DNA from: Lepidurus packardi
Lineage: Eukaryota; Arthropoda; Branchiopoda; Notostraca; Triopsidae
Reading direction: 5' to 3'
DNA: 64,000 nt
Assembly: GCA_023053545.1 (NCBI GenBank)
Contig: JAKZAN010000002.1
Coordinates: 7,498,790-7,562,789 of the forward strand
Of this stretch, positions 1,120-33,600 are shown piece by piece; positions within the stretch are counted from its first letter, which is position 1, and every line of letters starts with the position of its first letter. The notes beneath the pieces were generated by a model that ran no database searches, was not told the origin of the DNA, and saw nothing but the letters and a program-made list of their open reading frames with translations. A program made the translations under genes and the position numbers.

Positions 1120-3288
1120 ATGGAGATCGAAGAAGGCAAGCTATCCTTACGTTTGCAGTTGGACGAAGCTGACTTGAGCAAACTTTGCCAAAATTTAAGT
1201 GCGCCTTTGGTCCAACTTCCTAAAGATTCTAGCGCAAGTGAAACGACATTTAACATTGGGTATTTCGTGAAAGGGTCACTCGCCATTGACCACGTGAACG
1301 ATATCATTCTTCTCAATATCGACCTCCAGCAATCCACACAAACTCGTGGGACCCAAACCGGCGAGAACTCCTCCACGCCCAGACCTACTCCGTCAACCCC
1401 TAAACTTCCTTGGAATATCCACAGCACGAAATCCAAGTCCGAAGCCCCTCCGGCCTTCTCCAAATCGACAGAAACCCCTCCAGAATCGAATGTGCCCCAA
1501 GTTCCAACGTTTACCATTGATAGCGACAGTAATGACACAGTAACGAAGCCGGTCCCTTGTAAACCCCCTATCAAACACAAACCACCCTTAAGCCTAAACT
1601 GGGGCATCAAAACTAAGTCCGGTAAAACTTCCTGGAAAGTCCTCAAGCCCCTCAAACGTTTACCCCCTCCCAAAGCCTCCCTGTCCTCAGTTTCGTCTCA
1701 AAAAAACACAAAATTTCGCTATCGTGATCCCTATCTTAAAGTTATCTACCGGCTTAAAAAGAAAGGAGTCGAAATTCCTGCCGAAAACGAGCCCAGTCCA
1801 CACGAAAACCCCAATACGTCTTCCAATTCCAACTCAGAAACTCAAGCAGCATTAGAAACTCCATCTTTTGCCCTCACAGACCCCAAATGTGATTCTCCGA
1901 CTGAAAATTCGTCCTCCGGCAAAATGGTGACTGTCGGAGGCCGCGAACCCCGCTACGTTTGCAACTTATGTGGCGCGAGATATAGATCCAAGGTCTGGTT
2001 CGATGAACACACGTGTTCCAAGCCGAAAGAAGACAAAGCGTATGAATGCCCTCATTGCAGCCAAATCCTCCACACCAAGTTCTCCCTGGACAACCACGTA
2101 CGCCTCCATGCGGGTGATTTGCCTTACAGCTGCTCGGTCTGTAAGCAGTGCTTCAAGTGCTATAGCACTATGCGTTACCATGAGCGTAAACATATGCAAG
2201 GCAAACAGTATGAATGCTCCTTGTGCGATAAATCCTATACTCACATCACTAACCTGAAAAACCACATGAAAACCCACACGGCGCCAATTCCTGAGCTTCC
2301 ACCAATCCTATTACTCCCAAGCCGCGCCCCCGAGGGTGTAAACACCTTCGAAACTGCTGTTGCAGAAGCTTGTGCGGATTTAGCCCAGGAAATCCCTGTC
2401 ACAGCGTCCAATTCGACAGAAGAAATCGAGCACATGGAGCCGTTACTCGGGAATGACGTCACAGAGGAAGCGGATCAGGAGGAGGAAGCTCAGTACGTAC
2501 GATGTGGAGTGAACCGGCGCAAACGCAAAGTTCGCAACAAGGCCGGAAGAGCGAATTACGAATGCCAAGTGTGCGGGATTTCCTACAATTCCCGCATTTG
2601 GTTTGAGGAGCATCAGTGCTCGGGCACCAAACGACTCGTTTATCGCTGCGAAGAATGTGGGAAACTTTGCTACACCAAGTTTTCCTATAGAGCTCATGTA
2701 AATTTGCATAAAGGCTTACTACCTTATGAATGCGAGACTTGCCACGAAAAATTTGATAGTATTTCAAGGCTGCGGTATCACGAAAAGAAGCACGGTGATA
2801 GTTTCCCGTACAAGTGCCATTTGTGCGATAAAGCCTATACGCACGTGAGTAACCTGAAAATCCATTTATTGGCTCATAGTGGGTCGCGACCGTACCAATG
2901 CGAACATTGCGGAAGAATGTTTAGTACCGCAAGCAAATTAAAACTGCATATTAATACCCATACGAGGGTTAATCAAACAGAGTGTCCTGAATGCAAGAAG
3001 TTGTTTTCAGCGCGTGAGCAAATGCTGAGGCATATCCGACGTATGCGTTGCCCGGTCATCAAAGAGCGTATGCGCAGCAATGGGGGCGCCGCAGGGGAAG
3101 GCGGGGAAGTTGAAAAGGTGGGCATGGTTGATGGAGAAGTAGAAAATGTGGAGGTGGACATGAGCGGGTTGTTGCCCGACCAAATCGTGGACACGGTGGT
3201 GGTCATTTGCGAAAAAGGCAGCGAAGGAGAATTTGCCTCGGAGGATGTCTTTCTGCTAACCCAAGATTCCGATGCTGACAAAGCCTGA
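1120..3288 (+). CDS. C2H2 zinc-finger protein with duplicated four-finger module
   Basis: A single uninterrupted 722-residue frame, probably a nuclear DNA-binding transcription factor. Residues 1-80 form a non-finger N-terminal region. Residues 80-275 are Pro/Ser/Lys-rich and probably disordered. Residues 281-387 hold four fingers, an acidic linker follows, and residues 482-643 hold six more. The first four fingers of the second block match the first block finger by finger. Each block opens with a degenerate finger in which the last histidine is replaced by H-x-C (spellings WFDEHTC and WFEEHQC), and each fourth finger has a CDK-Y-T-H core. The final finger ends MLRHIRRMRC, again with Cys as a possible fourth ligand. 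The tail is acidic. The ATG at 1120 is the first in frame. No KRAB or ZAD domain is evident and no orthologue name can be given safely. A possible AATAAA for its 3' end is at 3591-3596. Confidence 0.9.
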   Translation: MEIEEGKLSLRLQLDEADLSKLCQNLSAPLVQLPKDSSASETTFNIGYFVKGSLAIDHVNDIILLNIDLQQSTQTRGTQTGENSSTPRPTPSTPKLPWNIHSTKSKSEAPPAFSKSTETPPESNVPQVPTFTIDSDSNDTVTKPVPCKPPIKHKPPLSLNWGIKTKSGKTSWKVLKPLKRLPPPKASLSSVSSQKNTKFRYRDPYLKVIYRLKKKGVEIPAENEPSPHENPNTSSNSNSETQAALETPSFALTDPKCDSPTENSSSGKMVTVGGREPRYVCNLCGARYRSKVWFDEHTCSKPKEDKAYECPHCSQILHTKFSLDNHVRLHAGDLPYSCSVCKQCFKCYSTMRYHERKHMQGKQYECSLCDKSYTHITNLKNHMKTHTAPIPELPPILLLPSRAPEGVNTFETAVAEACADLAQEIPVTASNSTEEIEHMEPLLGNDVTEEADQEEEAQYVRCGVNRRKRKVRNKAGRANYECQVCGISYNSRIWFEEHQCSGTKRLVYRCEECGKLCYTKFSYRAHVNLHKGLLPYECETCHEKFDSISRLRYHEKKHGDSFPYKCHLCDKAYTHVSNLKIHLLAHSGSRPYQCEHCGRMFSTASKLKLHINTHTRVNQTECPECKKLFSAREQMLRHIRRMRCPVIKERMRSNGGAAGEGGEVEKVGMVDGEVENVEVDMSGLLPDQIVDTVVVICEKGSEGEFASEDVFLLTQDSDADKA

Positions 3289-4200
3289 GGTCCTTTAAGA
3301 CGTTGCATAGATTCATGTTCATTGTTCTCTTCGAATGCGCACGAGTGTACATTTGTAGAAGGAAGATAACTTCTGAGGGTTAAGGTGACCTCTTGTGTTG
3401 GATTAGTAACGCGATACATGTGAGAAAATCGTGAAACACGTTTGGGACAATACACAACAACAGAATCTGGGAAAAGTCGACTGGTTCATTGCAGTCAACG
3501 AAGAGAAAATTGAATCAAGAGTTGGCGATAGGCTTCCTTAGATGGCATCAGTTCGAAAACATGCGCTGCCAACAGGTTAACCGGTTTCAGAATAAAAGAT
3601 AAAACTGACACTTTGTCATATTGTTGCAAAACGTCCTCCGGAAAAAGTATGACAAACGGGTGTCACTCAGTTTGAAAATGGGTAGTTGGATTGAAAATGA
3701 ATTATATTAGGTTAGTTAGTTCTCATGAATTTTCGTTGATGAGAATCGTTAATACTTGTACTTTCTTTCACTCCATTAGCGGAAAAAAATTCATAGTTTA
3801 AAAAGTGACAGGGTGGTGTCACTTTTGACAGTGGGACACGTTACGCACGTTTGTCAGTAAATACGGAGAACGTGTTGTGCTGCAGATAAAGAATGAAATA
3901 TAGACAAGTTGAAGATCTAGTGTCCCAAGTGGTATTTACTATCGTTCGTTTCTTAGGAGGAAAATATAAGGAGAAAAGAATATGACACATTTAGTTAAGG
4001 TTTCAGTTCTGGTAAGCGGTAGCTTGTATAATTGTTTTCCATGGGTGTGTTTTAGGTGGGAAACAGTTCTGTTGCGCATGTGTAGCGGAAATGTGGCTTT
4101 GGTTATCTAACTTAATGTATTCCAAAAGCTAATTCAATTAATTAGTTCATGGAAACGTCAGGTGATTCTAATTAGACGCTTGGGGTGTATGGAAGGGGCG
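3289..4200. other. 3' UTR plus interspersed repeat copy
   Basis: The first 300 bases are probably zinc-finger 3' UTR. From about 3590 to 3880 the sequence is a diverged, inverted copy of a repeat also present at 29.9-30.15 kb. It shares the GATGAGAATCGTTAA block near 3740, the TGACAAACGGGTGTCA block near 3650 and the terminal motif CGGAGAACGTGTT at 3864-3876. I see no coding exon here. Confidence 0.5.
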
Positions 4201-4350
4201 CAGGCGTGACTCATAGTATGGATCCACATTCCCAGATGGCGTGACTCATGCGAGACTATTCTGAGTGTGTCAATGCGCCGGCGCGACAGACAAGTGTTGA
4301 GAAGCCGGAGAAACAGACGGAGGGAAAATTTGTTGTTGCTTGAGTCAGTT
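4201..4350. promoter_or_regulatory. AP-1 / TEAD-like site cluster upstream of angiomotin
   Basis: Three perfect AP-1 consensus sites lie within 141 bases: TGACTCA at 4207-4213 and 4242-4248, and TGAGTCA at 4341-4347. A TEAD-type ACATTCC lies between the first two at 4226-4232. The cluster is 1.2 kb upstream of the angiomotin start used here. AP-1 and TEAD are known to bind composite enhancers, and angiomotin-family genes are YAP/TEAD targets in vertebrates. That this is the angiomotin promoter or enhancer is inference. Confidence 0.45.
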
Positions 4351-5576
4351 TAGAAGGCCGTTTAATCGAGAAACTTTGCTCTAATCCTTTCAAAAACGAT
4401 TTCTTGCATTCTCTGACTAGTGACGCGGAACGATAACCGACACAATTTCGCACCCACCGAAAACGGTAACAAAACGGAATTCTTCAAAGTTGGGGCTCCC
4501 AAAAAGTTCGAAATTTTCGAGTGTTACGACGGCTTAAGATTTGCAACGTGGACGGTGCTCCATAAAAACGGAATACAGTTACAACTCAAGACCTTGTTCG
4601 TGGCTCCAATTACGGTTCTTCTGCCCCATGAATTAAAAAAGAAAAAGAAATCTCTCGGAGGAAACGTCAAGTAAGCATTAAATTCCTAAAGTATTAACGC
4701 CGGTATTTCTTTTTATTTTTAGTCCAAGAGAAAGAAGAAAATTCCGCAATTCTTGGAACACCAGTTGTGTTGTTTTGAATGCAGAGGAATAGAAAGAAAA
4801 TCGAAAGTCCGACTCAAACCATTTTTTACGTCTTATTTTTGAAATTTTTTGTTGAGATGCCGAGTTCATCTCGCGCAGCATCATGGAATCTCCCAAGAGC
4901 GTCTGCCGCCCACTTGCGAGGCATTCCCAGCCATACCAGTGACGCTATAAATAGTCGTTGAGTTCTGCGGGCTTGGACGCCATTTAGCTTGTAATTTTTG
5001 AGCGCATTCCAAACGATTCGGTTGGCGGACGTGGATCGACTACTTTTTTTCCAAAGATTTTTCAAACAGAAATTTAATTCTTAAAGAAATAGGAAAATAA
5101 AAAAAGGACTAGTCGGTTTTTTTTCTCGTTTTGGCTCGAGGTTCGCCTGTCTGTCTTTTATTATGCTTGTTGTGGGACGGAGAAAGAGAGGGACGATGGA
5201 AAAAGGGGCCCCCGAAAGTATGAGAAGAAAGAAGAGCAGCTGCGGGATCCGATCGCGTGGACCTTTGAATTGTTGCTATGACTAAAAAGGGGGGGACAAG
5301 GGGGACCAGCTGCACCAAATGGAACGAGAGGACGGTTGTAGGAACGAAACATCTGCCTAGCATGTGTGTATGCGTATGTGTGTGGAGTAGGAAAGAGGCG
5401 TGACTTGGTGTTTGATAGCCAAATGTTTGCTCATTCCAGGTTGCCCCCCCAACTTTTCTTCTCCTGGGTTGGGAGTGAAGCTGCATTCCGGTAGAATTCT
5501 TGGCGCGAGAGCTACATGCACCAGTTTCCAAGTGTTGCCGAACGAAAAGACGAGTTTATTCAATACAGACAAAGAC
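4351..5576. other. Upstream region and probable 5' UTR of angiomotin
   Basis: No supported coding exon. The frame containing the chosen ATG stays open upstream to about 5400, so a longer N-terminus starting at 5400 cannot be excluded, but its composition is not protein-like. A GT-rich run lies near 5360-5385. Confidence 0.35.
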
Positions 5577-7363
5577 ATGCAAGAGAATCAACCATGCTCC
5601 AATCCTGCAGGTAATTTCGACTTTGATTTATAATTATCATTATTTTTATTTTTATTTTATTTTTTCTGGGCTGGAGTGTTGGAAAAGGGTTTTGAGTTTA
5701 GCGCTTGTTAAGGAATTTTAACGAGCCTGAAAGAATTTTAATTTCACAAATAAGCGAGTTTCTATTTCTTGGGGGGTTGGAATTTTTTTCAGATTATTTT
5801 TAGCATCGTCAACGACAAATTCAGAGTGTGATTTGTTTTAGTTTCAAAGATCATTGTAACCTCTTCATCCAAGTAAATTTTCTGTCGTTTTTGCTTTTAG
5901 CGTCGTTGTATTTGATCCTTGTGGACCCCAATTAAGGAGGATTTTCCAATCGGGATGAGGAACTAAGCTATTTTGTACAGATGTTTTTGATTTTGGAATT
6001 GCTGAACCATGAAGAGTAATTCTTTTTTCTTATCATTCTCCGAAATTTTTTTGAGACCGTGGTTGGAAACCGATGGTCTTGTGACCTTGGGAGAAGATAC
6101 TGTTTCACCCAGCTTGCATATTTGTCTAAAATTCCGATTTCAAATCCGTTGGACCCCTTTTCTGGTGAAACAGCCGTGTTTCTCCTGAAAAGCGGGGAAT
6201 TTCCGATCCAGTTACCAAACGAATTCATAGAAATTCGATCTTTTGATAAGAGAGGGATATATTGAGTTTAGTTATGGATTGACAAAGGTTTGGGAGGTTG
6301 AAAGGATTACGGATGGAAAGCTTAGACTTCCGTTTTAAAAAAGTTTTTCGTTAGATTTGAACTGTCGGAAGAAAGTTGAAGACGAAGACAGTGATATCGA
6401 AGATTTGACGCAAGAAGAAAAATTCCAGTTGCAACACATGTCGCGGCAAGACCCCCAAGGCCAAGAAGAAGAAGCGACGTTGCCCGGCGTCGATGATTGG
6501 ATGCTCAAAGGACACTTGGATGCGGCGTCGTCCTGTGGCACGCTCATTATCCATGGAAGTATTTCTGACGACAGTTGGGGCAGGTATGCGACATCTATTT
6601 ATAACCGTCTTCTCCCCTTTTACTAATTTCTTTCATTATTTTCTTGCGTGTGCTTTTTATTATTTTCGATTTTCAAAACGTACCATAATTAGTTTGAAGG
6701 AACTGAACGCACTTTTGGTGTAATTATTGGTTCATTGATGGGATATTTTTGTGTATTTTTTAAGGAATCCTGGGTCGATACAAGATTTGGGTGCGTACCT
6801 GACCAGTACTCCTAATCTACGACGTGGTCAGCATTTTTTAACCTCGAATGTGTCAGTTTTGTCAAGTCCGGCTGGTACTTTAAAGCGGAATTTGCCGGGA
6901 GCGCGAAATTTTAGCAGTTTTGGGAATCTCGCATCGGGGACAGTGAATATGAACGTGATGCAGCAGACGAGCGAAGCCAAAGAGCAAATGAAGCGTTTGG
7001 AACAGTTTGCGCACGACTTGAATATTTCTTTGCCGCCCATGCCGGAGAATCCATCCTCGGAAACGTTGGAATGTGCTGACGTCAGCGCCTTATCCATCAG
7101 TGACACGCTGTTGACGCAAACTAGTGGTGCGTCGTCTAGTTTTCAGTATTATGCAGCCAAACCTCCCCCAGCTTACCCCACCGTGCGCAAAAATGCACAG
7201 GAACCTGAGGTGACACGACCGCGTAGTCGATTACGCAGAACTTTATCCAGATCGCATCCAGATTTGTGTAAAATTGGATGGGAGTTGGGCTTGCGCAGTG
7301 GAGAAAAGAGTCCTGTCTTGCGTGATTTGCGCGAAAAACGGTATTTATTTCTATTCGGCTTGC

Positions 7364-7401
<38 letters not shown>

Positions 7402-9511
7402 CAAAACAAAACATTGTGAATGAAGTGACGTTTTTAAGTTCGCGCATGTCTACGTATTACTGCAGGATTCAGTCGCGCAGTCAGAGTCAAGACAAGGACA
7501 GCATTGCGTTGGGTTTCCCTTCTGCGAATGCCCGATTGCGTCAAAAGGAACCGGCCGAAGATTGGACGTCTGCGGAATTAGTAGATGCACTTTTGGAGGA
7601 GAATTTCGCTTTGCGTAAAGAACTGCGTGGGCACCATGACAATGCGCAAAAATTGCACAAAGTATTTTGATAAGTTTTATATGCAATAAAATGTAACGCA
7701 GTGGTCTAATTGGGTTTAGTTTGAGGAGGAATTGACGAATTTGCACACGGCTTATGAAACGTTGGTGAATTCGTGCGAAAAACGCGAAACGCTGCACCGT
7801 TCCATGCGCATGCGCTTAGAAACAGAGGTACGACGCCTGCAAGAGGTGAACCGCGCCGTGCGCAATCAAGCGGATCTTTTTTCCGCGCAATTAGCCATCC
7901 GGAACGCGTCGTCTGTAGGTGCGCAAACGGCCAATCCGGAATCAAGTGCGCAAAAAGAAATCTCGAGACGTGACTCTTTAATTGCGCAACTCATGACTCA
8001 AAGTATGCGAAAATTCTTTCCCTTAAGTTTTCTTTTATTTTGTCTTTTTCATTCTTTTTAATTTCGTTTTCTTAATTAGATAAAGAGTTGCTCTCCACTA
8101 AAGAGCGCCAGGATGTCGAACTCAACATGCAGCGTGCAACCCTGCAAGATCAGCGTGCGCATATCGAAGTTTTGGACGCAGCGTTGACGAATGCTCAAGC
8201 TAATATTATTCAGCTCGAAGACGAGGCAAGATCTAAGAAGGTTGCAGTGCATAATTGTATATTTAATGTATGATTTTTTTTGTCTGAGCAGGTTAGACGC
8301 AAAGGGACGCTGAATGACAAGGTAGCTCAGCTGCAGAAAGCGTTGATGGCATTGCAGGTTGCCAGCGAACGACGCGAAAGATCTGAACGGAGACTGCGAC
8401 AAGACTTAGAAAAAGAAATCTACTACTTAAAGAGTTCGACTGTAGATTTGATGTCGGAATCAATGATGAAAAGCGATCCGGAAGAACTTCGCAAGACATT
8501 GCGTGTGGCAGCCGAGAAAACGTTGGCTTTAGAAGCCGAAACAGCCCATTGGGAACAACGATACTTGGAAGAAGCTGCTTTGAGACAAGCAATTGTAACA
8601 GCGGCTATTTTACCCAAGTAAGCTTCTTATTTTTCGATCCAGTGCTTCAAAATCGTGAAATTATTCGGTATTTAAACCTTCGTTATGTTTTTTAGAGACG
8701 AAAATAGCGATAATTCCCAGCTCAGCAGAAGCAGGTATGCTGGACGCGATGACGTGTGGGCTTATAAGCGAATCCTTGATCTGGAATCCAAGTAAAAATG
8801 ATTTGCTTAATACATTTTTCGAAAAATTTCCTAGTTATACTTCAAACGATATTCATCCGCTTTTTACCTATTTTAAGATTAAGAGACGTGGAGTCGCGTT
8901 GTGAAGAGAAAGATGCCATGTTACGAATCATAAGCCGAGCGTCTTTAAACAAGGAAAGCCTTTTAAGTAGCAAAGCTCTGCCCATTAGTGAAATTCCAGG
9001 TACAGCCTTGATTGAAAAGAAAGCGGTGCGGGATTTGTAGGATTTTGATGGGGTTTTCTCAAAGTTTAGATTCTTCGAGTACCAGCGGGGCGTACTCTTC
9101 ACCTGCTTCTAGTTTGCCGCCTAGCGTCGGAGGTAGTGCGGCGAGTGTGGCTAGTAGTTTGAGTAGTAATCCAGCAGCAGTGGCCGTAGCGGTGCAGCGT
9201 GCATCCTCAGTCAATGGTAATGACGTTCGATGGCTTCAAAGGGGGCCTTCGATGAGTCGACGAGAACGGGAGACACCTGTAGCACCTTTGCAGCATGGGA
9301 ATGCGACTGCCACCGCTCCTCAGCCTGCCGCAACAGTGGATGACCAATTAAAAGGATTAGATACCCAGCTTCTTAGTAAAGTAAGCGAATGTTGAGTTTG
9401 AAGCATATAGGTTTAGTTGCTCACCGTTAGTGTTTTGTCTGTTAGGATTCACTCATTGCTGCCTTGCGAAACGAAAAAGAGCGCTTTCCTGACCATTACT
9501 GGAGACTCTAA
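5577..9511 (+). CDS. AMOT: Angiomotin family protein
   Basis: Junction and Hippo-pathway scaffold that in animals binds YAP/Yorkie-type WW proteins, LATS kinases and polarity proteins. I join 11 exons: 5577-5610, 6355-6583, 6765-7340, 7466-7661, 7720-8002, 8080-8240, 8292-8617, 8696-8791, 8878-8999, 9070-9380 and 9446-9511. All have GT-AG borders and continuous phase, giving 799 residues. The middle is the angiomotin coiled coil and C-domain, with family blocks such as YETLVNSCEKRE, DQRAHIEVLDAALTNAQAN and ALEAETAHWEQRYLEEA. A PPxY motif (PPPAYP) in exon 3 is a WW-domain ligand. The serine-rich tail ends in YWRL, whose last residues fit a class II PDZ ligand. The start at 5577 is the ATG whose exon splices in phase to exon 2; a longer start is possible. 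A 3' UTR signal AATAAA lies at 9711-9716. Intron 3 holds a run of 37 T. Confidence 0.93.
7365..7401 (+). repeat. Poly(T) run of 37
   Basis: An uninterrupted T run in angiomotin intron 3, about 65 bases before the acceptor. It may act as a long pyrimidine tract, or be the mark of a retroposed poly(A) tail on the minus strand. Its length is likely to vary between individuals and assemblies. Confidence 0.9.
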
Positions 9512-21100: not shown

Positions 21101-24100
21101 GCGTAAGGGTGATTTCGTGCACGTCCACCGTTTCCGTACGTTCCGGTGAGGGAAGGGACGAATGGCGGCCTGAGTGGGCATGGGAAGCGAAAGACAACGA
21201 CGTAGGCGTCCCTAATTTTCGTAAAAAAAGAAACGTAGCTTAATGAGATAGAATGCAGGAGTAACTCATACAGTCGACATTTGACTTTCCAGACCCACTG
21301 AATTAGATACAGTACATTTAACTCCATTCCTTTCATTTTCCAACTCAATAAATCGTTCTTAAGTAGACACTAAGAATTCAAGCTCCATAATTTATGAGTT
21401 AATGCAAATGTCAAAAGCGGAGAAGGATTAAATCGATGAAGAAATAGCAAAGGGATTTACCAGCTACGTTGTCGGCGACGGGCAGTAATGGCTGTGCTGA
21501 TACGCTCGTTCCCACGCCGGTGGAATGCAGAGGGCTCGTGTGTCGAAACGATTGGGACCTTTAAAAAAAAAAGAAAAAAGTGACAGCATTACTAACAGGC
21601 TCTGGAAAATGTTTATAAAGGTCTTGGACCCATGCATAAACAAAAAGAAGATGAGTTTTTACGGAACAGAAGCTTAAATGTGAAAGAGTAAGATGAAAAG
21701 AACCAATGAAAATAAAACTAAAAATACTTTGAATACTTTGTAAAAATATTTTGAATACCTTTGGAAGGATTGACGTTTGACATAATTCTCACGCACATAT
21801 TCAATGACTTGCTTCTGCGTGCGGCCAGTGTATCTGGTGAAATTGAAAGGAATGATATAATCATAAAAAGGCTTTTCCCAAAACAGGAAATCAAGGTTAT
21901 AATGGTAATGTACGGTTATAAATATGGGTGACTCATCTCCCGTTATACCTAAAGGACGAACCGCGAGCCATAACGCGAGGTTTGGGCTTGGCGTCCTTTT
22001 TAACAAAAGCGCACCGGAAAAAGCCATGGTGTTCCACGCATTTCTTCCAGAAATTTTTGCAAGCGTCCCGGTGATCAAACACGAACTCCACGGTGTCCTT
22101 ATAATAGCCCTGTTAAACATACACAAGACCATGTTTAATTCATTCGTTTCTTCGTCAGAATTGTTTGCTCCCAAATTAGAATAATCCCACGCGTCACTAG
22201 CGTTTCTTAAGAGAAAAAGAACGAAAACATGGAACTCAGGCTTACAGTTTGACTCACATAGCCCTCCGGGTGTAATTTAATAAGGAATTTTTTCCGTTTA
22301 AAAGATAATTTTCGTATCTTCGCCCAGGAGAAGGTATTGATTTTCGTGAAATTCTGGAAGACGAGAATTCCCATACTGGCCACCGCCAGGTTCAGCGGTA
22401 CGCCCTCATGGTCCTATAAAATCCCATCAAAGAGAATAAACAAAAACGAGTCTCAGAAATATGAATAAACACAAAAATCAATGCTCGTCAGAAGACACAC
22501 AAGAACGACAATCGACCCTTCAAAAGTTTGGGTATATAGGTATGTATGTATATAGAAAAGTTGGCCTACTTTGGCTGGATGCATACGGCAGCCGTAAAGC
22601 TCACATCTCCGAGCCGTTTCAAGCAAATTAACGTCCGCCTCAGCCGGAGTTTGTCCCACGTGCTTCTTATGGTTTTCCATAATTCGTCTTTCAAGTTCTG
22701 CATCTTGGTGAGGAACAAATTTGTACGTCGACAGATAGGTGTGATCGGGGTAATCTTCCTCCACGAAATCTCCACATTCCGCTATTAAGGAAAAAAAATA
22801 AACTTATGAGAAGTCTATCTCGCTTGAAATAGTATGGTGGGTTTAATTACACTTACATTGAACGATGTACGAGGCAAGTAATGCTGCTGTATTGTCATTA
22901 CACTGGAGCCAGCCGTTGGCCAAATCGCGTTTAATTTGCAAACAGAACAAATATCTCGTAAACTCTTCTTCTAATTGTGCAGGATCTGGGGTATAGAATT
23001 TGATAGCAAAACGCAGCAATGGATTTATTAAGGATAAGCCCATCTGGCGCCCAATCGGCTTCTCCAAGTCGAGCCAATACTGAAATATTCGATAGTTTAA
23101 TCGATAACATTGCAAATTTGAAATTAATCTATAACTAACCTAGTCAATATGAATCGATTGTTTGGTTTTATATAATACCGAATGAAATAACACAAATACT
23201 GCAATAATCGGATACTTATTAGGAAATAACAATACTAATGAGGTATAAAAACCATACACACCAAATAATGACTTAATAATGAACTGAATTATATAATGAA
23301 ATATAAGCTAATTATGAGCCTAATTATGATCCTAATATACGGCTCAAGTACAGCAAACATTAACACTAACTTATAACCATAGTGTAATCGACACTAATAA
23401 ATATTGGTAAAATACGAGTACAAACTGCTGAATATAAATGAAGGGAAAGGGTGTAGATACCTTGTTTTCCGCCGAGTCGTCGTATTCCAATCCGAAGTAA
23501 TCCGATTCCAATAAATTCAGTTGCTTGCAAACTTGGGCAAACAGCACACGCGCAATAGCTTTTACCTACAAACCAAGAAAAATGTATACTAATAAACCAT
23601 ATCACCCTTTTTGAACAACTTTAAAACATTTTTTTTTTCCCTGTTCTGCTTTTAAGGAGCCGCAATCAAAAACGGGAACATAAGAGAAAAGTACTAATCA
23701 ATAAAAAAACCAGCGTTTCATATCCCCTAATATGTTCCGCTTTGGCTTGTTTTCCTCTCCAATCTTCCTCCCTTTTCACCAGCCTTTTCTTTCAAGACAT
23801 TCAGCGGCTTTTCAGCAATTCTCCCCTTACCCCCCAATGCGTCACACACACACATTCACACGCAATCTATTTTTACATTTCAAAGTCGTATGCAAAATAG
23901 CCACACAACTTCACGTCATCGTGCCGGGCAGGCAAGCTTTCTACTTTTTTATAAAAAAAAAAAAAATAAAAAAGAGAAAATAAAACTCACTTGGACACGG
24001 AAAGTAGAGACGGAATCGTCTACCATTTGCACACGAATATCCACCATTTTCCCGCTTTTCGTGGGCCCAACGTTGGGTGTGCTGGTACTATTGGTAGGCG

Positions 24101-24191
24101 TGGTATGATTTGCATAAAGTCCAGTTTGGTCGACTCCGGCTGGGGACGAATGGGAGTGGCTTAATTTCCCGGAATTGCTTTCCGTAGCCAT
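15135..24191 (-). CDS. FARP: FARP-type FERM, RhoGEF and pleckstrin domain protein
   Basis: Guanine-nucleotide exchange factor for Rho-family GTPases linked to the membrane by FERM and two PH domains. Exon 1 is 23991-24191 (ATG at 24189-24191). FERM exons are 23461-23565, 22857-23079, 22570-22781, 22258-22413, 21949-22109, about 21760-21835 and about 21480-21560. They carry family blocks [47 protein letters not shown] and [15 protein letters not shown]. Exon 9 (18908-21211) encodes a 768-residue acidic Ser/Asp/Glu linker. After 17467-17681 come the DH domain ([45 protein letters not shown]), PH1 ([16 protein letters not shown]) and PH2 ([18 protein letters not shown]), ending EDAYWTEA. Both linker joins keep phase. 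The total is about 1,750 residues, against about 1,045 in human FARP1; the excess is the linker. Exon 9 can also read through its donor for about 48 codons to a stop at 18765, giving a possible FERM-only isoform. Whether it is closer to FARP1 or FARP2 was not resolved. Confidence 0.92.
18235..18640. repeat. Possible small foldback element in FARP linker intron
   Basis: GGCCAGACCTATT near 18288 is repeated in inverse as AATAGGTCTGGCC near 18615, inside the intron between the linker exon and the DH exons. A related spelling (GGTTTTGGCAAAAGGCTGGTCAGGCCTA) occurs near 10450. The ends and target duplication are not clear. Confidence 0.3.
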
Positions 24192-25437
24192 TGTTGGCTA
24201 TTGTCCCACAACTTCACCGTGGATGAATCGCTAAAGGAAGCTGAGCAATGTGTAATTGGAGAATTTCTTCACTTCCGGGACATTGCAGACGACACCAGCC
24301 TACAGTTTTTGAAAACCGGGCTAGGCAATGATGGTGGAAACTTCTCCAGCTGGGACTTTGGTTCCAAAGCCCTCCGAAATATTCCTGCAGGAAGACAAAA
24401 TTGTTAGGAAATGGGAGAAATAGACGTCTTGGATTAGAAAACAGGATAAATCTTAAATTCTAATCCTCTTAGAACGCCAAAAATGCGAGACAAAACACTA
24501 AATGTGACTAGATTGGCACAGGATGGTTGTGCTTAAAGTAATCCTGGCTGTTAAACCCATCAGCAAAGACTTTCGCTCATTCAATTAACCACTTAACAGC
24601 GTCTTGACATGGGAGATGAATAGTTACTGAGACCTTTTGAGGTTGCGAAGCAGAGGGGAGTCATATCGCGGGTTCAAGAACGCAACTAAATCGGGGGAAG
24701 CAGGTTTTCAAGCTAAGCTGACAGGGATTTAACTACTTGTATCTGCTGGTTTCTCTATCTCTGCTTATTCTCTATGGCTTCTCTATTTTCCGTAATTCTA
24801 AAATCTTTCACGAAGTTGAAATGTTTGGGCTAAACAAACTTCTGTTCCCAACTACTTACTTCAATTGGCTTAAAAGGGAGCCTAAAATTGCTAGAGAATC
24901 CATCAAGAACTAAATGTTGCCCTTTTATAAAGGCAACTGTGAACCAAGGATTCTTCTTTTCTCTTTTTGCCACGTTCACAAGAAGATCAAAGAAAGACAA
25001 GTATAAAACAAGTAAATATTTACCTGAATATTGCTTGGGTTGCGGAAATTCTGACACACAAAAACTATGCGCAAATCACCGTGGCGTGTATCGTATCAAA
25101 CACGGTTGGAAGAGACGGCAAGGAACCGCCCACACATGGGAAGAGGGCTTTAGACCACACGACACAGATGCTTGTTCTCAATCCAATTTATGCGTCACCC
25201 GAACGCTTTTAGCTACCTCCAAGAGCTGCAATAGTTGCGTAAACGTATAAGAACTTGAGTTAATATCTTTTTGAGCAACACTCCAATCCAGAAACAAAAA
25301 TTTACTCCATTTTTGATCACAATATTGACAGCCCCGTCACCGGCCGAACCCGACTGACAAAACTACTTCTTACATTAGCTTAACTGCTCTACCGCTAGGT
25401 AACGCGCATGGGTCTCGACTTATGAATAACAATTAAT
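24192..25437. other. FARP 5' flank; no supported gene
   Basis: Contains the presumed 5' UTR and promoter of FARP, transcribed leftward. Several open frames occur on both strands but none has recognisable domains or matching splice sites. Confidence 0.35.
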
Positions 25438-25602
25438 ATGGAATCAGGCCGTGATCGTTCACCAGGGAGAAAAGGTTTTCGTTTGCACTGCCCAGGCCTG
25501 TCACAAAATGTGCTACGTCGTCAGATGTTCACGGCAGCAAGAAGATGCATAAAGAGCCTGTTTTTTCCTGACGAGGAAGCTGTAACTTTGATACCAGAAT
25601 AA
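25438..25602 (+). CDS. Short + strand frame in the mobile-element island, unrecognised
   Basis: A 54-residue frame from ATG at 25438 to TAA at 25600-25602, basic in the middle (NVLRRQMFTAARRCIKSLFF). It could be a terminal exon or a remnant of an element gene. Nothing identifies it. It immediately precedes a copy of the 13-base terminal motif at 25625-25637. Confidence 0.2.
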   Translation: MESGRDRSPGRKGFRLHCPGLSQNVLRRQMFTAARRCIKSLFFPDEEAVTLIPE

Positions 25603-25698
25603 ATAACTTGAGTCAAAAACGTTCAACACGTTCTCCGAAAGACTGACAAGTCGGTGTCATTTAAACCTGTGTCGAAAACTGACATCGATGTGTCGTTT

Positions 25699-26100
25699 GT
25701 CCTTTGGTGCTATACGAAAAAGCGGGGCCAACTCTGTAAGGCTCCTTGGGCGTTTTCGAGATCAATTACTATTATAAAAGGGTCAGACTTGATAAAAACG
25801 ATAAAATCATACGTATCGGAGCCTTTTTTGAGTACATATGAGCTTAACAGAGTTAGTTTTGTTCAGATGGGGAAACCTTGTCACTTTGTCCCTTTGTACT
25901 AGACGCAAAGGCGGGTTACCTCTGAAAAACGCCCGCAAAGGGTTAACTCAAGTACTATTATAAAAGGGTCAGATTTGCTAAAGACAGTAAAGTTATGAGT
26001 ATTGGAGGCCGTTTGACGTACACATGAGCTTAAAACAGTTAGTTTTATTCAAGATCGGGGAAACTGTGTCACTTGTCCCTTCGTACTACACGCAAAGGCG
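25699..26100 (+). repeat. Diverged tandem repeat, period about 188 bp
   Basis: Three starts of the same block (TGTCC followed by TTTG or TTCG and GTACTA) lie at about 25699, 25887 and 26074. The inner block ACTATTATAAAAGGGTCAGA occurs at 25768 and 25954. This makes two full units and the start of a third. The copies differ by substitutions and small indels, so the duplication is not recent. Confidence 0.7.
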
Positions 26101-26316
26101 TGCCAAGACGCATGCGAGGAATCTGTAGTGGAAGGCATGCGGGCTTTACTTTCCAGAAGAAAACAATATGTGCTTTCGTACAAAGCCGAGGCCGTTCGAA
26201 AATTTCGAAGTCTAGTCTACGAGCAAAGCAATGTAGAGAATAATTCTGACTGCTCATCTGGGGAAGACGATTCGGACCAAGAATTGGAAGACGAATTCAT
26301 AGTAAATATCATTTAA
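26017..26316 (+). CDS. C-terminal coding remnant on + strand, unrecognised
   Basis: The frame is open from 26017 and ends at TAA 26314-26316. A plausible last exon begins after AG at about 26118 and reads ESVVEGMRALLSRRKQYV, a basic helix, then an acidic tail ending EDEFIVNII. An AATAAA follows at 26331-26336. The basic-helix-then-acidic-tail shape resembles the C-termini of some transposases, but this is only inference. No upstream exon could be joined with confidence. Confidence 0.35.
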   Translation, partial: RTHELKTVSFIQDRGNCVTCPFVLHAKACQDACEESVVEGMRALLSRRKQYVLSYKAEAVRKFRSLVYEQSNVENNSDCSSGEDDSDQELEDEFIVNII

Positions 26317-26330
26317 GCTAACACTTATTT

Positions 26331-26354
26331 AATAAAGCTTAAGAATGCTTTATT
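26331..26354. promoter_or_regulatory. Back-to-back poly(A) signals of convergent genes
   Basis: AATAAA at 26331-26336 on + and the reverse complement of TTTATT at 26349-26354 on - serve the + strand remnant and the - strand gene whose stop is at 26377. The two 3' ends must overlap by tens of bases. Confidence 0.5.
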
Positions 26355-26376
26355 TATAAATGGTTCACACATTGGT

Positions 26377-27915
26377 TCACTTCGTTACTCCCGGACAGTT
26401 ATCTTCCCATTCGAATTCTATCACCTATTGTAGATCAAACAACAATCAAGGCTAACGTCTACCGTGGTTCAATTGGATCTTACCACGATCTCCTCTTGTG
26501 TGTCTTGGGCATTTCCAATAATCTCACCGGCTGATGGGCTTATAACCTGTAAATTACTCTAAAACGAGGAAACAGTAAATCGGAAGAAGATAAGACGCTA
26601 GAAGGCAAAGCAACAAAATAATGGAAGCTTTACTTCGGTCGGTAGGGCAACGGTGTGAATCTGCTTCAGCTGGTCATTCGTCCGTCCGGTCACTCGTCCG
26701 TCAGGAAATTCAATCACCTAATATTTTACGGATAAAAATATACTTTCCTTGTGTCAGAAATCCGGTGACCCTTAACTACTCAATTTAGCATAAAGATATT
26801 CAATAGAGTACTTACCACATCAAGCTCAGGTTCAAGTTCTTGGTTACCTTGAATCGAATGCATTGCTGGTGAAATAGGCAGCTGTCTTCTTCTAGTCTTC
26901 TGGAATGAGTCAATGATGAAACAAATGCTGAGACTAATTTGTGAATAGCTGTACTTGGTTGCTTTGCTCTTCTGCCATTTTCGTTCTTTTGGCTTCGTTC
27001 TCTAATTAATTTCGTTCTCTAATTAATTAAGCGATTACTTATAAAAGGTAACACTTACTTGAACACGTCTTGAGATCTTTCGCCTTCCTCGCCTTTGTGC
27101 GTTTTTTCTTCTCCGTTTTAGTAACACCGGATGTATGAGTAGACTCTTTTCCGTGAGTTACATCAATTGAGAGTTCATCTACGTCTTCCTACATTTTTAA
27201 CATTAAAGCGCTCAAATATATGAATACAAAATTACCTTGTCAGCCGTATGATCTTCGTCAGCCGACACTTCCGCTGAATCAGGAAGCGGTTGGGAATCCT
27301 CCCTGAAAGTAACGAAGACTTAACATCTTATAATAGTGTTAAAAGGGTATACTACATGGCATTATTAAACACAATAGATTATACGAATGCCTGTAAAAGT
27401 TTTGTGACTGAACTTGAGAGTGTACTTGTCAACTGCAGAAATGTACTCCTCCTTCAGGAAGGTAAGGATATGATGGCCTCTTAGGCTTACATCCCTTCGC
27501 CCGCAGCTTTTCTCTTCCACAAACATTTTTTCAATTGTTTCGTTATACGTTAAGAAACTTGACCTGTAGCTAGGCTTTCGCCCTATAATAAGCAAGACGC
27601 TTGCGTAACCGACACCTTCTAATTTTGCCATCTGTAAAATAGTTTTTATTTTCATAATTTATGCGCACATAGTCTATGGAAGAAAAGTCTTACTTGTTTA
27701 AAAATAGACTGCTTAATGCGCATTAATGAGTTCGACTGTAAGGAAGCCTTCTGCCCTTTCTCAAAACTTTCTCGCAGCTTTCCATTCCGCTTTTCATTTG
27801 TCACTTCTTTGAAATTCGTTGGTTTCTTACATTCTGAACAAGTTTTTCTTAAGTAATGTAGTGGCTCACTGCAATGCGGGCACGGCTTTTTATTGCTAAT
27901 ATTCCTTTTAATCAT
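26377..27915 (-). CDS. Spliced gene of unknown family with N-terminal zinc knuckle, in mobile-element island
   Basis: I join nine exons, from ATG at 27913-27915 to TGA at 26377-26379, all with GT-AG borders and continuous phase, giving a protein of roughly 320 residues. The N-terminus carries two CxxC pairs (KPCPHCSEPL and KTCSECKKPT) followed by a Lys-rich segment. The second exon (MAKLEGVGYASVLLIIGRKP onward) is the only hydrophobic, folded-looking part. Later exons are acidic, then basic (EKKKRTKARKAKD), then a set of short exons two of which open with VIEF. I do not recognise the family. The start codon context and about 55 upstream bases match the KDZ-like neighbour, which places both genes in the same element family. 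Intact frame and splice sites argue that it is, or was recently, expressed. Confidence 0.6.
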
Positions 27916-27944
27916 TTCCAGTTAACTACCAATTTTCAAATACC

Positions 27945-28110
27945 AATGTTTGTAAACATAAACCAGAAAGAACAACAGCACTCCGAGTGGCGATGTCCCT
28001 AAGCTTTCGCCCAGAGGTTTATAGCAAATTCTTCTGATACACTAGTTTCAGTATTCGACCAGCGGGATACTTTACATCTCTTCGTCAGTTGTTACCGGCG
28101 AACCTGTTGC
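27945..28110 (-). repeat. Shared leader/promoter repeat, copy 1
   Basis: Upstream of the gene starting at 27915. The plus strand reads AGAACAACAGCACTCCGAGT from about 27970, then GGCGATGTCCCTAAGCTTTC. About 50 bases are identical to copy 3 at 29788, and the GTTTACAAACATTGG block nearest the start codon matches copy 2. The last codons of the KDZ-like gene lie inside its far end. Confidence 0.75.
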
Positions 28111-29608
28111 AGATGGCACCTCATCGACAAAACCGCTCAGTCCGGACATGCATCGTACCCATTCTTCAAATGCGTCCTTAAATGCGATTTGGGAGATTAC
28201 CTACAAGAAAAGAGGTTACAAGAGAAATAGAATAAGTAGTAATTGTTATGCAATCAGTAAGTGCAATACTTACGCGTACATCTAAGTCTTTTGAGAGACG
28301 TTGAAGGGAAGCAAGAAACGCTCTAACTGAGAGTTGAGGACTGTCCATTTTTAAAAAGAAGAACGTGCGTAGTGTTTCGGTAGAGAATATATAGCACCCT
28401 TTAAAGTAAGAGTAGAAAAAAGTTAGGCAGCCAGTCTTTAAAGGTCCCGTTTACCTCCGTAAATACTGGACGAACCAGCGAAATAGTTAGAAGCAACGAG
28501 ATTTTCCCAATCGACTTTATGAATGAAAGTGCACGAATGGCATTTCACGGCCGGAAGGAATACATCTTGTTGACCTAAGGGGGAAGGAAAAAGAAATGCA
28601 TGTGATAAGACATTACTGCTTATCTGACAGACTACCTCGAACGGACACGAATACGCAGGGGATATCAATAATGCACTCGACTTCTTCCGAGCCGCAGTTT
28701 TTACAATTGCTTTCAAGTCTTGCCGGGATTGCACGATCTAACACAGATGAACGAGTTTAATGTATTTCCTCATCGATATATTACGAATATACCATCGTTG
28801 CCCAGAGCGTATGATCCATCCTGCTGTAAAACTAAAGTCTGACAAGGTTTAAGGGTCGTCTTAAAGTCAACAACCCAGGTATGACGAACATGCGTAGCTA
28901 AGAATTTGTGTTTTAGTGCGTCACATGTGACGCACAAAGCCCCACAGCCGTCTTCACACCTGTAATGCTTCACTAATTGAAAAACTAGAAGCACTTAAAA
29001 ATGTACCTCATAATCGCCGGATTTGAGTTGCAATTAACACAATTCTCATTGGTGAACGGAGGAGATTCTTCTTTAAAAAACGCAGTGAATATTTCCGGCC
29101 TTCTTGCTTCCCACTCTGAAGATCTCTTTTCTCTCCTTTCAGTCCAAGTCCGAGAAGGGGGTGGATTTGGTTGTCCTTCAGTGAACGTATTTTCATCCAA
29201 AGGTTTCCTGAGCCTCACTAGCTCAACGCGATTACCTACAATAATAAAACATTTAACCAACGAGAATAAATATTCTAACTTAGCTTCCTTACACGCTTGG
29301 GCCTGGGGAATTTCTGGAGCTTCGGACACGAAAGGTTCAGAGGTCGACGCACCATCGTTAAGATTAAGAGTTTTCGCCATACCAGTGGTCTTAGTTTTGG
29401 AAATACGTGATGGTCGGTTTGAGGATTGCAATGTTCCGGCTCTTGTGTGTATATACAGTTTACCACGACTTTTTCCGCCATTTTTTCTACTCTTTGCTTT
29501 TTCAGCTTCCTTTTTCCTTTTCTGTACAGCTTCATACCGTTCTTTCAACATTTCACCGATCGTCGAAGCCAACTTCTGCTCGGTCTCCCTAATATTCCTT
29601 TTATTCAT
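28072..29608 (-). CDS. KDZ transposase-like N-terminal protein lacking the catalytic domain
   Basis: Six exons join in phase from ATG 29606-29608 to TAA 28072-28074, roughly 410 residues. After a basic, disordered N-terminus comes RTWTERREKRSSEWEARR. A zinc cluster follows, with ligands in NCVNCNSNPAIMRCEDGCG, LCVTCDALKHK and THVRHTWV. A second set is NCKNCGSEEVEC and VKCHSCTF. Then come the WENLVASNYF segment and a SVRAFLASLQRLS helix. This order (linker Trp, cysteine cluster, H-x3-H, second Cys pair, W...L segment) is the front half of Kyakuja-Dileera-Zisupton transposases with a CxC-type zinc cluster. The acidic-triad catalytic half is absent; the frame stops after SATGSPVTTDEEM, residues encoded by the repeat shared with other leader copies. 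It may therefore be a truncated transposase or a protein reduced to its zinc region. Confidence 0.7.
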
Positions 29609-29614
29609 TATTCT

Positions 29615-29700
29615 TTCCGATTTTCAACAACCAATGTTTGTAAACAAAAGCCCTAAGGAAGAACAACAGAACTCCTAGGGGCGTAAAACGCAAATTCTTA
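29615..29700 (-). repeat. Shared leader/promoter repeat, copy 2
   Basis: Upstream of the KDZ-like gene. Shares GTTTACAAACATTGG and GAACAACAGAACTCC with copy 1, and the start codon region ATG-A-N-TAAAAGGAATATTAG with the neighbouring gene. Confidence 0.7.
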
Positions 29701-29758
29701 AGACACGATGGTGTCATATTTTATCTGGGTATACTGTACATATATTCGTAACTAAATC

Positions 29759-30365
29759 CGGAGAACGTGTTGGAAACCAGATGGGAGAACAACAGCACTC
29801 CGAGTGGCGATGTCCCTAAGCTTTCGCCAACAGGCATAAACCAAATTCTACGACAAACGGTTGTCATGTTTGACCAGCGGGGATAGACGTTACACCAATT
29901 TTTCACTTTTTACCGGAGAACGTGTTGCAAGTTTTAACGATTCTCATCAACGAAAGTTGATAAGAATCGTTAACCTCAGCTAAACTAACCTAAAGCTAAG
30001 CTAACATAAACTAAACTAACCGAACGTAACCTAATTCATTTCTAACCCAACTACCAAATTTCGAACTCGAATTTCCAACTAAGGTACTCCGGTAAAAGCT
30101 AGCAGTGCGATACATGACACCCGTTTGTCATTCGTTCTGGAAAACGTGTTGAAAACTTGTACTTGGTCGAAAAACTTGGTCGAATGTTAAAAAAGTAGTG
30201 TCAGTTTTGACTCCCGTTTACATGACACCACTTTGTCAGCTTTCAGGAGAACGCGTTGATTAATACAAGAGGTTCTCAATGTTGCAACACGTTCACAATG
30301 TTCACAACACGTTCACTAGTGTCACAATGTTGCAACACGTTCTCGGAAAAACTGACAAACATGTT
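29759..30365. repeat. Leader copy 3 and clustered terminal motifs of the island repeat
   Basis: Contains leader copy 3 (from 29788) without an attached gene, and exact copies of CGGAGAACGTGTT at 29759-29771 and 29914-29926. Looser copies lie near 30135 and 30245, and an inverted near-copy at 30333-30345. Between them is a CTAA-rich stretch (29975-30035) matching the repeat at 3.6-3.8 kb in inverse. It reads as piled-up ends of one repeat family. Confidence 0.6.
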
Positions 30366-30690
30366 TCACGTATCGCGCTGCTGGTTTTGTCCTGTAGCCC
30401 ATATGTGACCCATCTGTACCCATCTATGTCTGCAATAAACCATGTAAACTTGATAAACTGAACACTAAAATTTAAAAGGAATGCATTAGCCAAAATACGT
30501 CGCATTTTAGGATCAAAATTTCAATTGCATGTAGTAACTTTTCCTTACAAAAAGAAATGGTAATAAAGAGCTAAATTTAAGCATTCCTGTCATTTGAGCA
30601 TCTTATGATCTTTGTAATTAATATGCAAGATTTCCATTTTCCAAAAAAGAGCACTCGAACAAAAAGTGTTCATCATCTTCAAATTCATTC

Positions 30691-33600
30691 TCACTGCATT
30701 AGTCCTTGGGAAACCATAAACTGAGTTATTAATTCGGCCAAGACTCGGCGCTTAAATCGCAACGATTCTTCAATGACACCTTGGATAAATGCCACTTTCA
30801 TTTCCGTGCTGCCTTGCACGTTCCCAAGGTCCGTAAACAAACTTTTATAATCTGCAAACAAGAACACCACCGTTTATAAAAGATTTCCCTCGAAACGTTA
30901 CATGCACTTTATTCGTATCAAGTAAAGTACCTTTGCCTGGCCTCCGGATAGCCTTGTAGATGGACATCTTTAAGCTCGCATTATGTTCACGGATCTCTGC
31001 AATCTCGATTTTGCTAGAAACAATATTCCCATTAAGGCGAGGGGCGGGGTGTTCCGCAATACCATTAAAATTGCCTTCATTGGCTTCTCTTTCTCGATGG
31101 AGCGCCAGGCCGTTTGGTAATCTGGGTAAGCCTTGTGCTAAACGATCTTCAGCGTCCGAGTCTACCGGCACATAATCTGAAGAGGGAACATACAAATTAC
31201 GTTATTCCATATGTTCAAATCTTTGTCCAAAAATTAAAAATTACCTCCATTGACCAAAGGATAATCGGGAATTATCGATTCGCGGCTAACTTCATCCGCA
31301 TTGAGAAGAAAAGGCGAAGAAAGGGGCACAAAGGTCTGTGAAGGACTGGGAATTACCAACGGAGGTATGAAAGGAGGGTCTGGGAGGACCACAGGCTGGA
31401 TTATGGGCACTGGAGGGGGCGACACTGCAGGAACAGGATACACGACTGGCGGAGGTGACGGACTGGGCGAGATTATTACAGGAAGGGGAGAACTAGGTCG
31501 ACGAATCACCAAATCTTTGGGTAAAGGCCCCGGTTTTCTTTTGCTGCTTCGCAGCCCGGATGGGGACATGGGATCAGCTGGACGCTTGATTCCGCGTATG
31601 GGACTACTTCCACCGCCCATGAGGTCAATATCTGCTTCATCCACCATCATTCGCTACGAAGAAAGAATAAATTAGAAAAATTTCCTTATTTTGTGTACTA
31701 AAAAAACGTTGCAAAACCTTGTCGATTTTAAAAGGATTGCCGAACATGTGCTGCCGAACAGGTGTGGACTCAATTTCCCTAAGGGGTGGTGGGATCCGCT
31801 TGAGATATTCTTGGTAATTGCCCATTTGTGCTACGGGCATACTGTGTAATTGATCTGAAACGAATATTATTTCATTTTCAGACAATTATTTTGATTTTCT
31901 TCGTTGTTTTCTTTACCATCATCTTGAAGTTTCGTGTGGGTTAGTGAAGGTTGTAAGAAATTAGCGCGCATGCGCGCTACCTGGTCTAATAAAGTGGACC
32001 GCGGAATGTCATAAGGATTGCGAAAACTTTGTGGTCGTACGTCTTTGTCTTTCATGGCTATCGCAAAACCAGGGAAGTCCGTCACTTGGTCCCTCAAGTG
32101 ACTGAACTTACCTAAAGACAGGACATTTTTGTTCAACGAGCACAAAAATACATTAGGTTGAATATAAGTAACCAATCAAAAAGAACGTACTTTGCAATTT
32201 AGGGTTAGAAATCAAGTCTCGCCTTAAGGGAAACCGTGGTACGACTTTCATGCCTTCCAGGCTAACCGGTCTCACTCTTCCTACGTCATTGCACAGTTTA
32301 TCAAACTCCGTTTTGGCTTGATTCTTTAAACGTTTCAGATAATTCACGACGCTGTAGCTTAAGCTGTTATCCAAGGTCTCGGGAATCAAGGAAGTTGCCA
32401 GATTGGGTGCTCCCATTCTTGTCAACGCTCTTCTCAATGGCTGGAAAATCAAAATAATCGTTATTTTATCGCTTTAGATCAGAAAAGTGAATCTACCGCA
32501 GCGTAATAAGGTGGCATGGTTCGTAAATAATTAGCGAATTGCTGTCTCCACTCTACTGTGGGCTTTAAACGCAACAGTTTAAACAACTCATCCAAAAGCG
32601 GTAACAACGCAGGGTAATTGTAAGGCATAACAAACAGATTCACGGTTTGCAAGTTCGTGGATGCTTTCAAATACCCAAAGGGGTGTCCAAGGTCCCCTGC
32701 CTTATGGCTACTGGGCACGAACACCTAAGATAATATCACAGAAATTACCACCAGATATTATCAAAGTATATCAGATAGTATCACAGAAACGACTTGAATG
32801 TGATATTTTAAAAAATATGTTCTATTCGAATGAATGATTTTAATTTTAAATACATTTTCGAAAAATTTTAATATTTTATTTAATCTATACTTTACCTGCC
32901 AACAGGTGGTAGCTTGTTTTCGGGACAAAATAAACTGCGTGAGAGGGCAAGGTTCAACCTCGTATTTGTCAAAAGGAAGATTTTCGATCACCATAGGCTC
33001 TTGGTTGGTACATGTGAATTTAATTAGGGGATGAGCTGTCCTTGGGGGCTAGAATACAAACGTTTACTAGTACTTTTACCTATTTATATCTAAATCAATA
33101 GGTTTACCAAGGCTGGAGCGTTCATATCGGGCCAGAAAGCTTCTGGAATGGGCCAGAATCCCACGGCAAAGCCTTTCTGAGCTGATCGGGGGACCAAAAT
33201 CATCCGTCTACAGGTCTGCCACGCTGAAGGCATTGCAGAGTTCAGATTAATTGGTGTGGGAGTGTGCGGACGGCTCGAGGAGTTGTTATCAAAGGGTTTG
33301 ATCTCGTTTTCCATGTAAATATCCGTGTCGGATTTCACTAGAATTAAGCAAAAGGGTTTCAGAATGCGCAGGAGGAAAACAACAGCTATCTAATTACATT
33401 CGTTGCCCATTGGAGGAGGATCGGGTCCTACTTTCTCGAAATGGATCACTACGCCACTTTGGATCTTCTGGACCAAGCTTTCAACGCACTGCATTAGCAT
33501 TCGATGGGAAGTAATTGCATACGAGCGACCTAGAAAACAACAACTATATTATGACGGGAGATGGCTTTTTGAGCCCTTTGTGTTACCTCCCGTAACCTCA

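Follow-up and report, generated by a model that had tools for sequence, protein, structure and literature searches.

The leader shared by the two genes

The question raised by this locus is why two genes for different proteins should begin with the same sequence. The window, a stretch of 64,000 nucleotides from Lepidurus packardi (C2:7498790–7562789 of the 108.6-Mb genome), carries two spliced genes on the minus strand, one starting at 29608 and related to KDZ (Kyakuja-Dileera-Zisupton) transposases, the other, here called the second gene, starting at 27915 and encoding a different protein. The first-pass annotation had given these two starts and a common leader, and both were borne out: over 200 bp each, reaching codon 6, the leaders matched with 72.5 bits in BLASTN, against 22.0 bits for the best of 200 dinucleotide shuffles. 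The similarity extends further than the approximately 55 upstream bases first proposed, with an inner block of 97 vs 95 bases (77%) and an outer block of 152 vs 156 bases (78%; 27960–28111 of the second leader vs 29774–29929). The common first codons also held, the KDZ protein of the window starting with MNKRNI and its second protein with MIKRNI. The shared leader is almost certainly a terminal inverted repeat (TIR) of a KDZ DNA transposon, and it is common to both genes because each normally occupies one end of one transposon with mirror-image ends.

A search of the genome with the window region gave 41 matches, among which two full-length copies with both ends present were found, namely C5 (8444 bp) and C16 (8439 bp), both of the type here called A. 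Their TIRs are approximately 200 bp long (183–219 bp for type A in general) and start with CAACACGTTCTCC, the ends reading CAACACGTTCTCCGG and the termini of the element having the form CAACACG...CGTGTTG, that is, CA...TG ends. Both copies are flanked by perfect 8-bp target site duplications (TSDs), AATTTCTT for C5 and GATAGACC for C16, and the ninth flanking base differs in each, which sets the TSD at 8 bp in two of the two type A copies with both ends intact. The interior of both holds a KDZ transposase gene and a zinc-ribbon gene in convergent orientation. Profile scanning of ten frames (nine of C5, one of the window) identified the KDZ transposase domain (PF18758) on the C5 exon L009:5018–5467 with E=6e-17 and 62.5 bits vs a cut-off of 26.6. 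For the CxC-type cysteine clusters that KDZ elements have upstream of this domain, a CxC3 match (PF18804) was obtained at E=1.9e-4 and 21.6 bits, under the cut-off of 26.6. The KDZ domain, the TIRs, the 8-bp duplications and the convergent genes of the full-length copies together identify the shared leader as the TIR of a KDZ transposon.

In nine of nine aligned TIR ends (from C5, C16, C4, C38 and the window) the repeat spans the ATG and five further codons (MNKRNI). Both proteins of the type A copies thus begin with MNKRNI, since each TIR holds the ATG as well as codons 1–6. The start context ATGANTAAAAGGAATATTA was found 13 times in the genome, always where one or other of the two genes begins within a copy of the element, while the reversed pattern, used as a control, gave no occurrence. 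The TIR probably also acts as the promoter of both genes. With start codons in the TIRs, predicted promoters and convergent genes, a full-length copy would be able to produce the two proteins jointly at any site of insertion.

The second gene and its protein

At its N-terminus the second protein carries a four-cysteine zinc ribbon of the form CPxC...CxxC, after which comes a conserved AxLEGxG...VL block. All five aligned exon-1 rows keep the four cysteines unchanged, and 15 of the 69 columns of exon 2 are invariant in six of six rows, although one of these, the first M, is a TTG codon in family D (see below). In families A, C and D alike, a GT...AG intron separates exons 1 and 2, its protein position agreeing to within about one residue. 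Zinc ribbons were matched in Pfam only below threshold (DZR, E 0.01–0.16). The gene had originally been described as encoding a zinc knuckle; a CCHC knuckle is ruled out by the arrangement of the cysteines as a CPxC...CxxC ribbon, with sub-threshold Pfam matches. A MADS-like fold, suggested by eye, was likewise rejected, with an hhalign probability of 0.4% against two MADS sequences, although in the register that had been suggested, and no Pfam hit.

Exons 1 and 2 of the second gene are strongly conserved between the window and a related copy at C2:6.62 Mb, with a ratio of non-synonymous to synonymous substitution rates (dN/dS) of 0.086 (18 synonymous and seven non-synonymous changes); between C5 and the window the ratio is 0.44. 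Such conservation would by itself fit a host gene which had acquired the leader. However, an exon-by-exon search with queries from three sequence groups located the second gene at 22 loci in four sequence groups (one locus being a fragment, and a chance match at C16:579230 with E 0.13 being excluded from the count), several of them within TIR-bounded elements. A host origin is extremely unlikely on these grounds and is refuted by the copies that reside inside full-length transposons of the same genome, so that the possibility left open at first, of a conserved host gene with the leader added, falls away.

Copies across the genome

The genome contains 16 KDZ-domain matches, of which 15 are above the curated cut-off. 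At seven of the 16 a second-gene exon lies in convergent orientation at a distance of 5.3–6.0 kb: C5, C16:1.15 Mb, C38:50–56 kb, C4:1.2 Mb (where the second gene is cut short), C3:2.0 Mb, C1:4.23 Mb and C16:0.63 Mb. Other copies bearing both genes, the check proposed by the first-pass annotation, are thus present in the genome.

A divergent family, C, accounts for three of the seven convergent pairs. Its KDZ domain shares 53% (C1), 50% (C16) and, as two separate segments, 59% and 40% (C3) identity with that of type A, and its second protein is approximately 35–40% identical. Matching TIR ends bound both genes at C3 (8465 bp) and C1 (9385 bp). The TIR at C3 measures 137 bp and both start codons lie beyond it, and TIR-coded N-termini are therefore not universal. 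It should also be noted that the family C TIR end occurs at 29 places in the genome with up to two mismatches, including C1:6835622, C2:192128 and C5:6751008; many of these are away from detected genes and are probably short non-autonomous elements. A 4971-bp unit at C1:8354078–8359048 has family C TIR ends on both sides, an inward second gene at each end and no KDZ match, and is apparently a mirror-symmetric derivative. Beyond the KDZ end of the C3 element (L026 from 4441 on; C3:2022440), the sequence was seen by eye to resemble the inner part of the TIR of another copy, and the C3 element was therefore probably inserted into a relative.

A further family, D, comprises seven KDZ loci which are approximately 98–99% identical to the family representative. 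None of the seven has a convergent second gene, and at two of them a second gene lies on the same strand.

Structure of the window copy

In the following, el denotes positions in the C5 element (el 1–8444), and all features up to the second gene lie on the minus strand. The outermost part, on the KDZ side, is the outer portion of an older TIR of a second type, B (29774..29927), which begins with CAACACGTTCTCCGG and is 78% identical over 152–156 bases to the outer TIR of the second gene, the terminal 15-mer being exact. At its inner edge it is broken off by a type A end. This type A TIR (29590..29772) runs from the terminal CAACACG through the ATG to codon 6, and it was aligned with the two TIRs of C5 and of C16. 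The 8 bp preceding it, CTGGTTTC (29780–29773), resemble CTGGTTTA at the equivalent place in the TIR of the second gene.

The 5′ part of the KDZ transposase gene follows (28110..29608, el 165–1675), with the N-terminus and cysteine clusters. The window gene is 92.7% identical to the C5 element over el 1–1675, and its predicted exons 3–7 (28959–28793, 28737–28636, 28574–28455, 28398–28274 and 28200–28110) are open in all four aligned copies. Its frame runs into the next TIR, which supplies the last codons and the stop ahead of the catalytic KDZ domain. The kinship to KDZ first assigned to the gene at 29608 is upheld for a gene which in the window lacks its catalytic domain. Similarly, of the intact frames through many small exons that had been attributed to both genes, the first joint of the second gene stands in three families and the predicted exons 3–7 of the KDZ gene in four copies, but the KDZ gene itself ends early.

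The last bases of the KDZ part form the right copy of a duplicated 8-bp target (28110..28117), reading GCCATCTG on the minus strand where el 1668–1675 is GGAATCTG. The second TIR, of type B (27896..28109), begins with CAACAGGTTCGCCGG and includes the ATG and codons 1–6 of the second gene. This gene (26377..27915, its end coordinate being taken from the first-pass annotation) has homologues in families A, C and D; exon 1 spans 27915–27694 and exon 2 spans 27631–27425, with the later exons putative. Element interior downstream of the second gene was recognized at 26111..26587 (el 6007–6489, 82.6% to C5). It is followed at 25689..26106 by a remnant (el 3720–4541, 73–76% to C5) of central tandem repeats of approximately 190 bp, which in C5 lie mid-transposon at local positions 6761–7629 (L009/L010). 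At 25440..25623 on the plus strand lies a remnant of the KDZ body (el 1668–1933) that is reversed relative to the KDZ 5′ part. The duplicated 8-bp target has its left copy, GGAATCAG, in the first bases of this remnant, 25440–25447.

Sites at which C5 and C16 agree and differ from C2:6.62 Mb were used to trace the ancestry of the KDZ part. Upstream of 29072, the window carries the type A base at 67 of 68 such sites, the other base at none and a third base at one; from 29072 on, the 85 sites divide into 40 of type A, 40 of the other type and five with a third base. On this pattern of sites, the 5′ part of the window KDZ gene is a mosaic.

Origin of the head-to-tail arrangement

On the minus strand, el 1–1675 occupies 29772 to 28110, after which the second TIR and the second gene continue likewise leftward. 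Read on the plus strand, the pieces ascend in element order from el 1668 to 8288, with large deletions, and finish in the second TIR. Everything from el 1668 on is therefore inverted relative to el 1–1675. The terminal base of the second TIR directly abuts el 1675, and el 1668–1675 is present at both joints.

The joints suggest the following sequence of events. A younger type A element would have inserted into the KDZ-side TIR of an older copy, and recombination between both KDZ genes would then have left the mosaic gene. The second TIR end would have been cut free and joined to el 1668–1675 within the KDZ gene, with an 8-bp duplication being made, and this attack of the element on itself would have inverted the remainder and turned convergent genes into head-to-tail ones. 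Such a one-ended self-insertion is, with moderate confidence, the cause of the tandem; for piggyBac, a single end has been documented to transpose into its own element (PMC3952818). On the whole, we consider it highly likely that the window copy is a dead, inverted, internally deleted and mosaic remnant of a two-gene KDZ transposon.

The tandem was seen three times, in the window, at C2:7.28 Mb (99.6%) and at C2:6.62 Mb (86%). Its recurrence, together with the strong conservation of the second-gene exons between the window and C2:6.62 Mb, would agree with the reading first given to the locus, which takes the head-to-tail pair for a two-gene cassette built for a purpose, or for a derived family moving in tandem form. 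However, window positions 23072–32573 are 99.6% identical to C2:7281000–7290500 over all 9501 bases compared, approximately 241 kb apart, and by this identity the C2:7.28 Mb tandem is a segmental duplicate of the window, in a duplication of at least 9.5 kb. Furthermore, the joints of the window (el 1675) and of C2:6.62 Mb (el 1712) are 37 bp apart, the transposase is cut off ahead of its KDZ domain, and the genes are convergent in the full-length copies. A tandem moving as such is accordingly very improbable, and a head-to-tail cassette as the design of the element is ruled out by C5 and C16; what stands of the earlier reading is a single mobile-element family having two genes with a duplicated leader.

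A derivative deleted for all but the second gene might alternatively have inserted itself within a KDZ gene belonging to a different copy. The terminal TIR base abuts KDZ sequence in both tandems, the C2:6.62 Mb tandem is bounded on its far side by a TIR end (6621150), so that a unit of 2.1 kb results, and the unit at C1:8354078–8359048 demonstrates that TIR-bounded second-gene units without a KDZ match exist. Against this, the far-side KDZ remnant of the window is inverted, which a simple insertion does not yield, no KDZ remainder was found within the 3.1 kb examined to the left of 6621150, and the 8-mers flanking the C2:6.62 Mb unit differ (AAATCCGG vs AAACGAAA on the other side). Nested insertion is rather unlikely as a general explanation, and in its simple form it is ruled out for the window tandem by the inverted remnant at 25440.

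A number of observations weigh against the interpretation of the window copy as a self-inserted remnant of a two-gene transposon. Both 8-bp copies at the joints are degenerate, and no matching original TSD was found in the left flank of the window copy. At C2:6.62 Mb the junction of the second TIR end falls at el 1712, a distance of 37 bp from the window joint, with no inverted KDZ remnant found to the left of that tandem. The constraint on KDZ exons 3–7 is weaker, with a dN/dS of 0.33–0.66 (0.40 for the window vs C2:6.62 Mb, 0.66 for the window vs C5 and 0.33 for C5 vs C2:6.62 Mb) and of 1.16 for C5 vs C16, the latter from five changes. With regard to the pairing of the genes, the second gene is on the same strand at two of the 16 KDZ matches (C58 and C100) and was not detected near seven of the 16, two of these seven being truncated type A copies (C3:0.35 Mb and C1:10.7 Mb); no TSD was present at either of the two family C elements examined (C1 and C3). 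Finally, the second protein gave no significant match in Pfam or PDB (best E 0.01 and 0.063), and the AlphaFold2 model of its exon 2 is poor, with a mean predicted local distance difference test score (pLDDT) of 53.2 and a predicted template modelling score (pTM) of 0.36. Its function has for these two reasons to be inferred, and the likeliest role, to which we give an even chance, is that of an accessory DNA-binding or regulatory factor of transposition.

Comparison with known transposons

By domain, TSD length and TIRs, the element is a KDZ transposon nearest to Zisupton as described in PMC12730594 and PMC9297572. Zisupton is presented as a KDZ-group transposon with 8-bp target duplications (PMC12730594), and two groups of Pristionchus, of 8099 and 8870 nt, are given as having no TSD found (PMC9297572). 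With these the Lepidurus element shares the PF18758 domain, the 8-bp TSD (Zisupton), the TIRs, an apparently multi-exon transposase and a similar length. It differs from what they describe in its second, convergent zinc-ribbon gene, and in having, in its type A and B copies, TIRs which extend into the two coding regions. Fungal KDZ elements are reported to carry a TET/JBP dioxygenase gene as cargo (PMC12730594), and the second gene here is not such a dioxygenase. Fungal Kyakuja, which that source gives as having a 7-bp TSD and no TIRs (PMC12730594), belongs to the same transposase group and has the same 5′-CA...TG-3′ termini, whereas the present element has TIRs and an 8-bp TSD.

The layout had initially been thought to match nothing described, but KDZ is a described group and maize MuDR offers a parallel. 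MuDR has two convergent genes, for the transposase and for a protein of unknown function, and TIRs of approximately 215 bp which hold the promoters and transcription starts (PMC3440606). Convergent genes and TIRs of approximately 200 bp are thus common to both, the start codons lying in the TIR here and the promoter role being a predicted one. Unlike MuDR, the present element has a transposase of a different superfamily and holds the start and first codons of both genes inside the TIR. MuDR has a TSD of 9 bp, as opposed to the 8 bp of C5 and C16. No transposase family of the Mutator-like element (MULE) type was matched at E≤1 in the ten scanned frames, one of which gives KDZ.

A transposase accompanied by a second protein is also found in KolobokP, whose second gene is encoded downstream on the opposite strand (PMC9587614), and in Harbinger, of which the lineage Nuwa has a Myb/SANT protein (PMC12730594). 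In contrast to the zinc ribbon found here, the second protein of these systems is, as they are described there, a His-Me finger nuclease or Myb/SANT protein. No zinc-ribbon partner of KDZ elements is described in the portions of the literature compared (PMC12730594, PMC9297572), founding descriptions aside. The literature searches named, in the titles and abstract openings covered, no KDZ element with such a partner, and no paper combining KDZ, transposase, zinc ribbon and terminal inverted repeats was returned, a result that does not establish absence from print.

To our knowledge, KDZ transposons have been described mainly by their transposase and, in fungi, also by the TET/JBP gene. Two features may be new: the conservation of a second gene in KDZ elements, and TIRs encoding the common N-terminus of both proteins. 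That two divergent families of a single genome have kept the second gene suggests a helper of KDZ transposition open to direct testing, and TIRs reaching into both frames offer a simple case of likely co-regulation, comparable to that of MuDR. It is a tentative and rather doubtful extension of this that the zinc-ribbon protein might be an obligate, anciently conserved partner of the transposase, with the TIR being at once binding site, promoter, start codon and source of the shared MNKRNI tag. As for the window copy, a TIR end attacking its own element could mimic a head-to-tail cassette, which presents a trap for annotation.

Other features of the window

Ends resembling CAACACGTTCTCCGG (up to three mismatches) were found at 12 places in the window against 1.26 expected (3570–3877, 25624 and 29758–30347), and suggest further small elements with KDZ-type ends. 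A long C2H2 zinc-finger open frame at 1096–3288 (zf-C2H2, E=1.4e-26) represents an ordinary host-type gene. A further open frame at 21674–22276 has a FERM-adjacent domain slightly below the cut-off (30.2 vs 30.6 bits).

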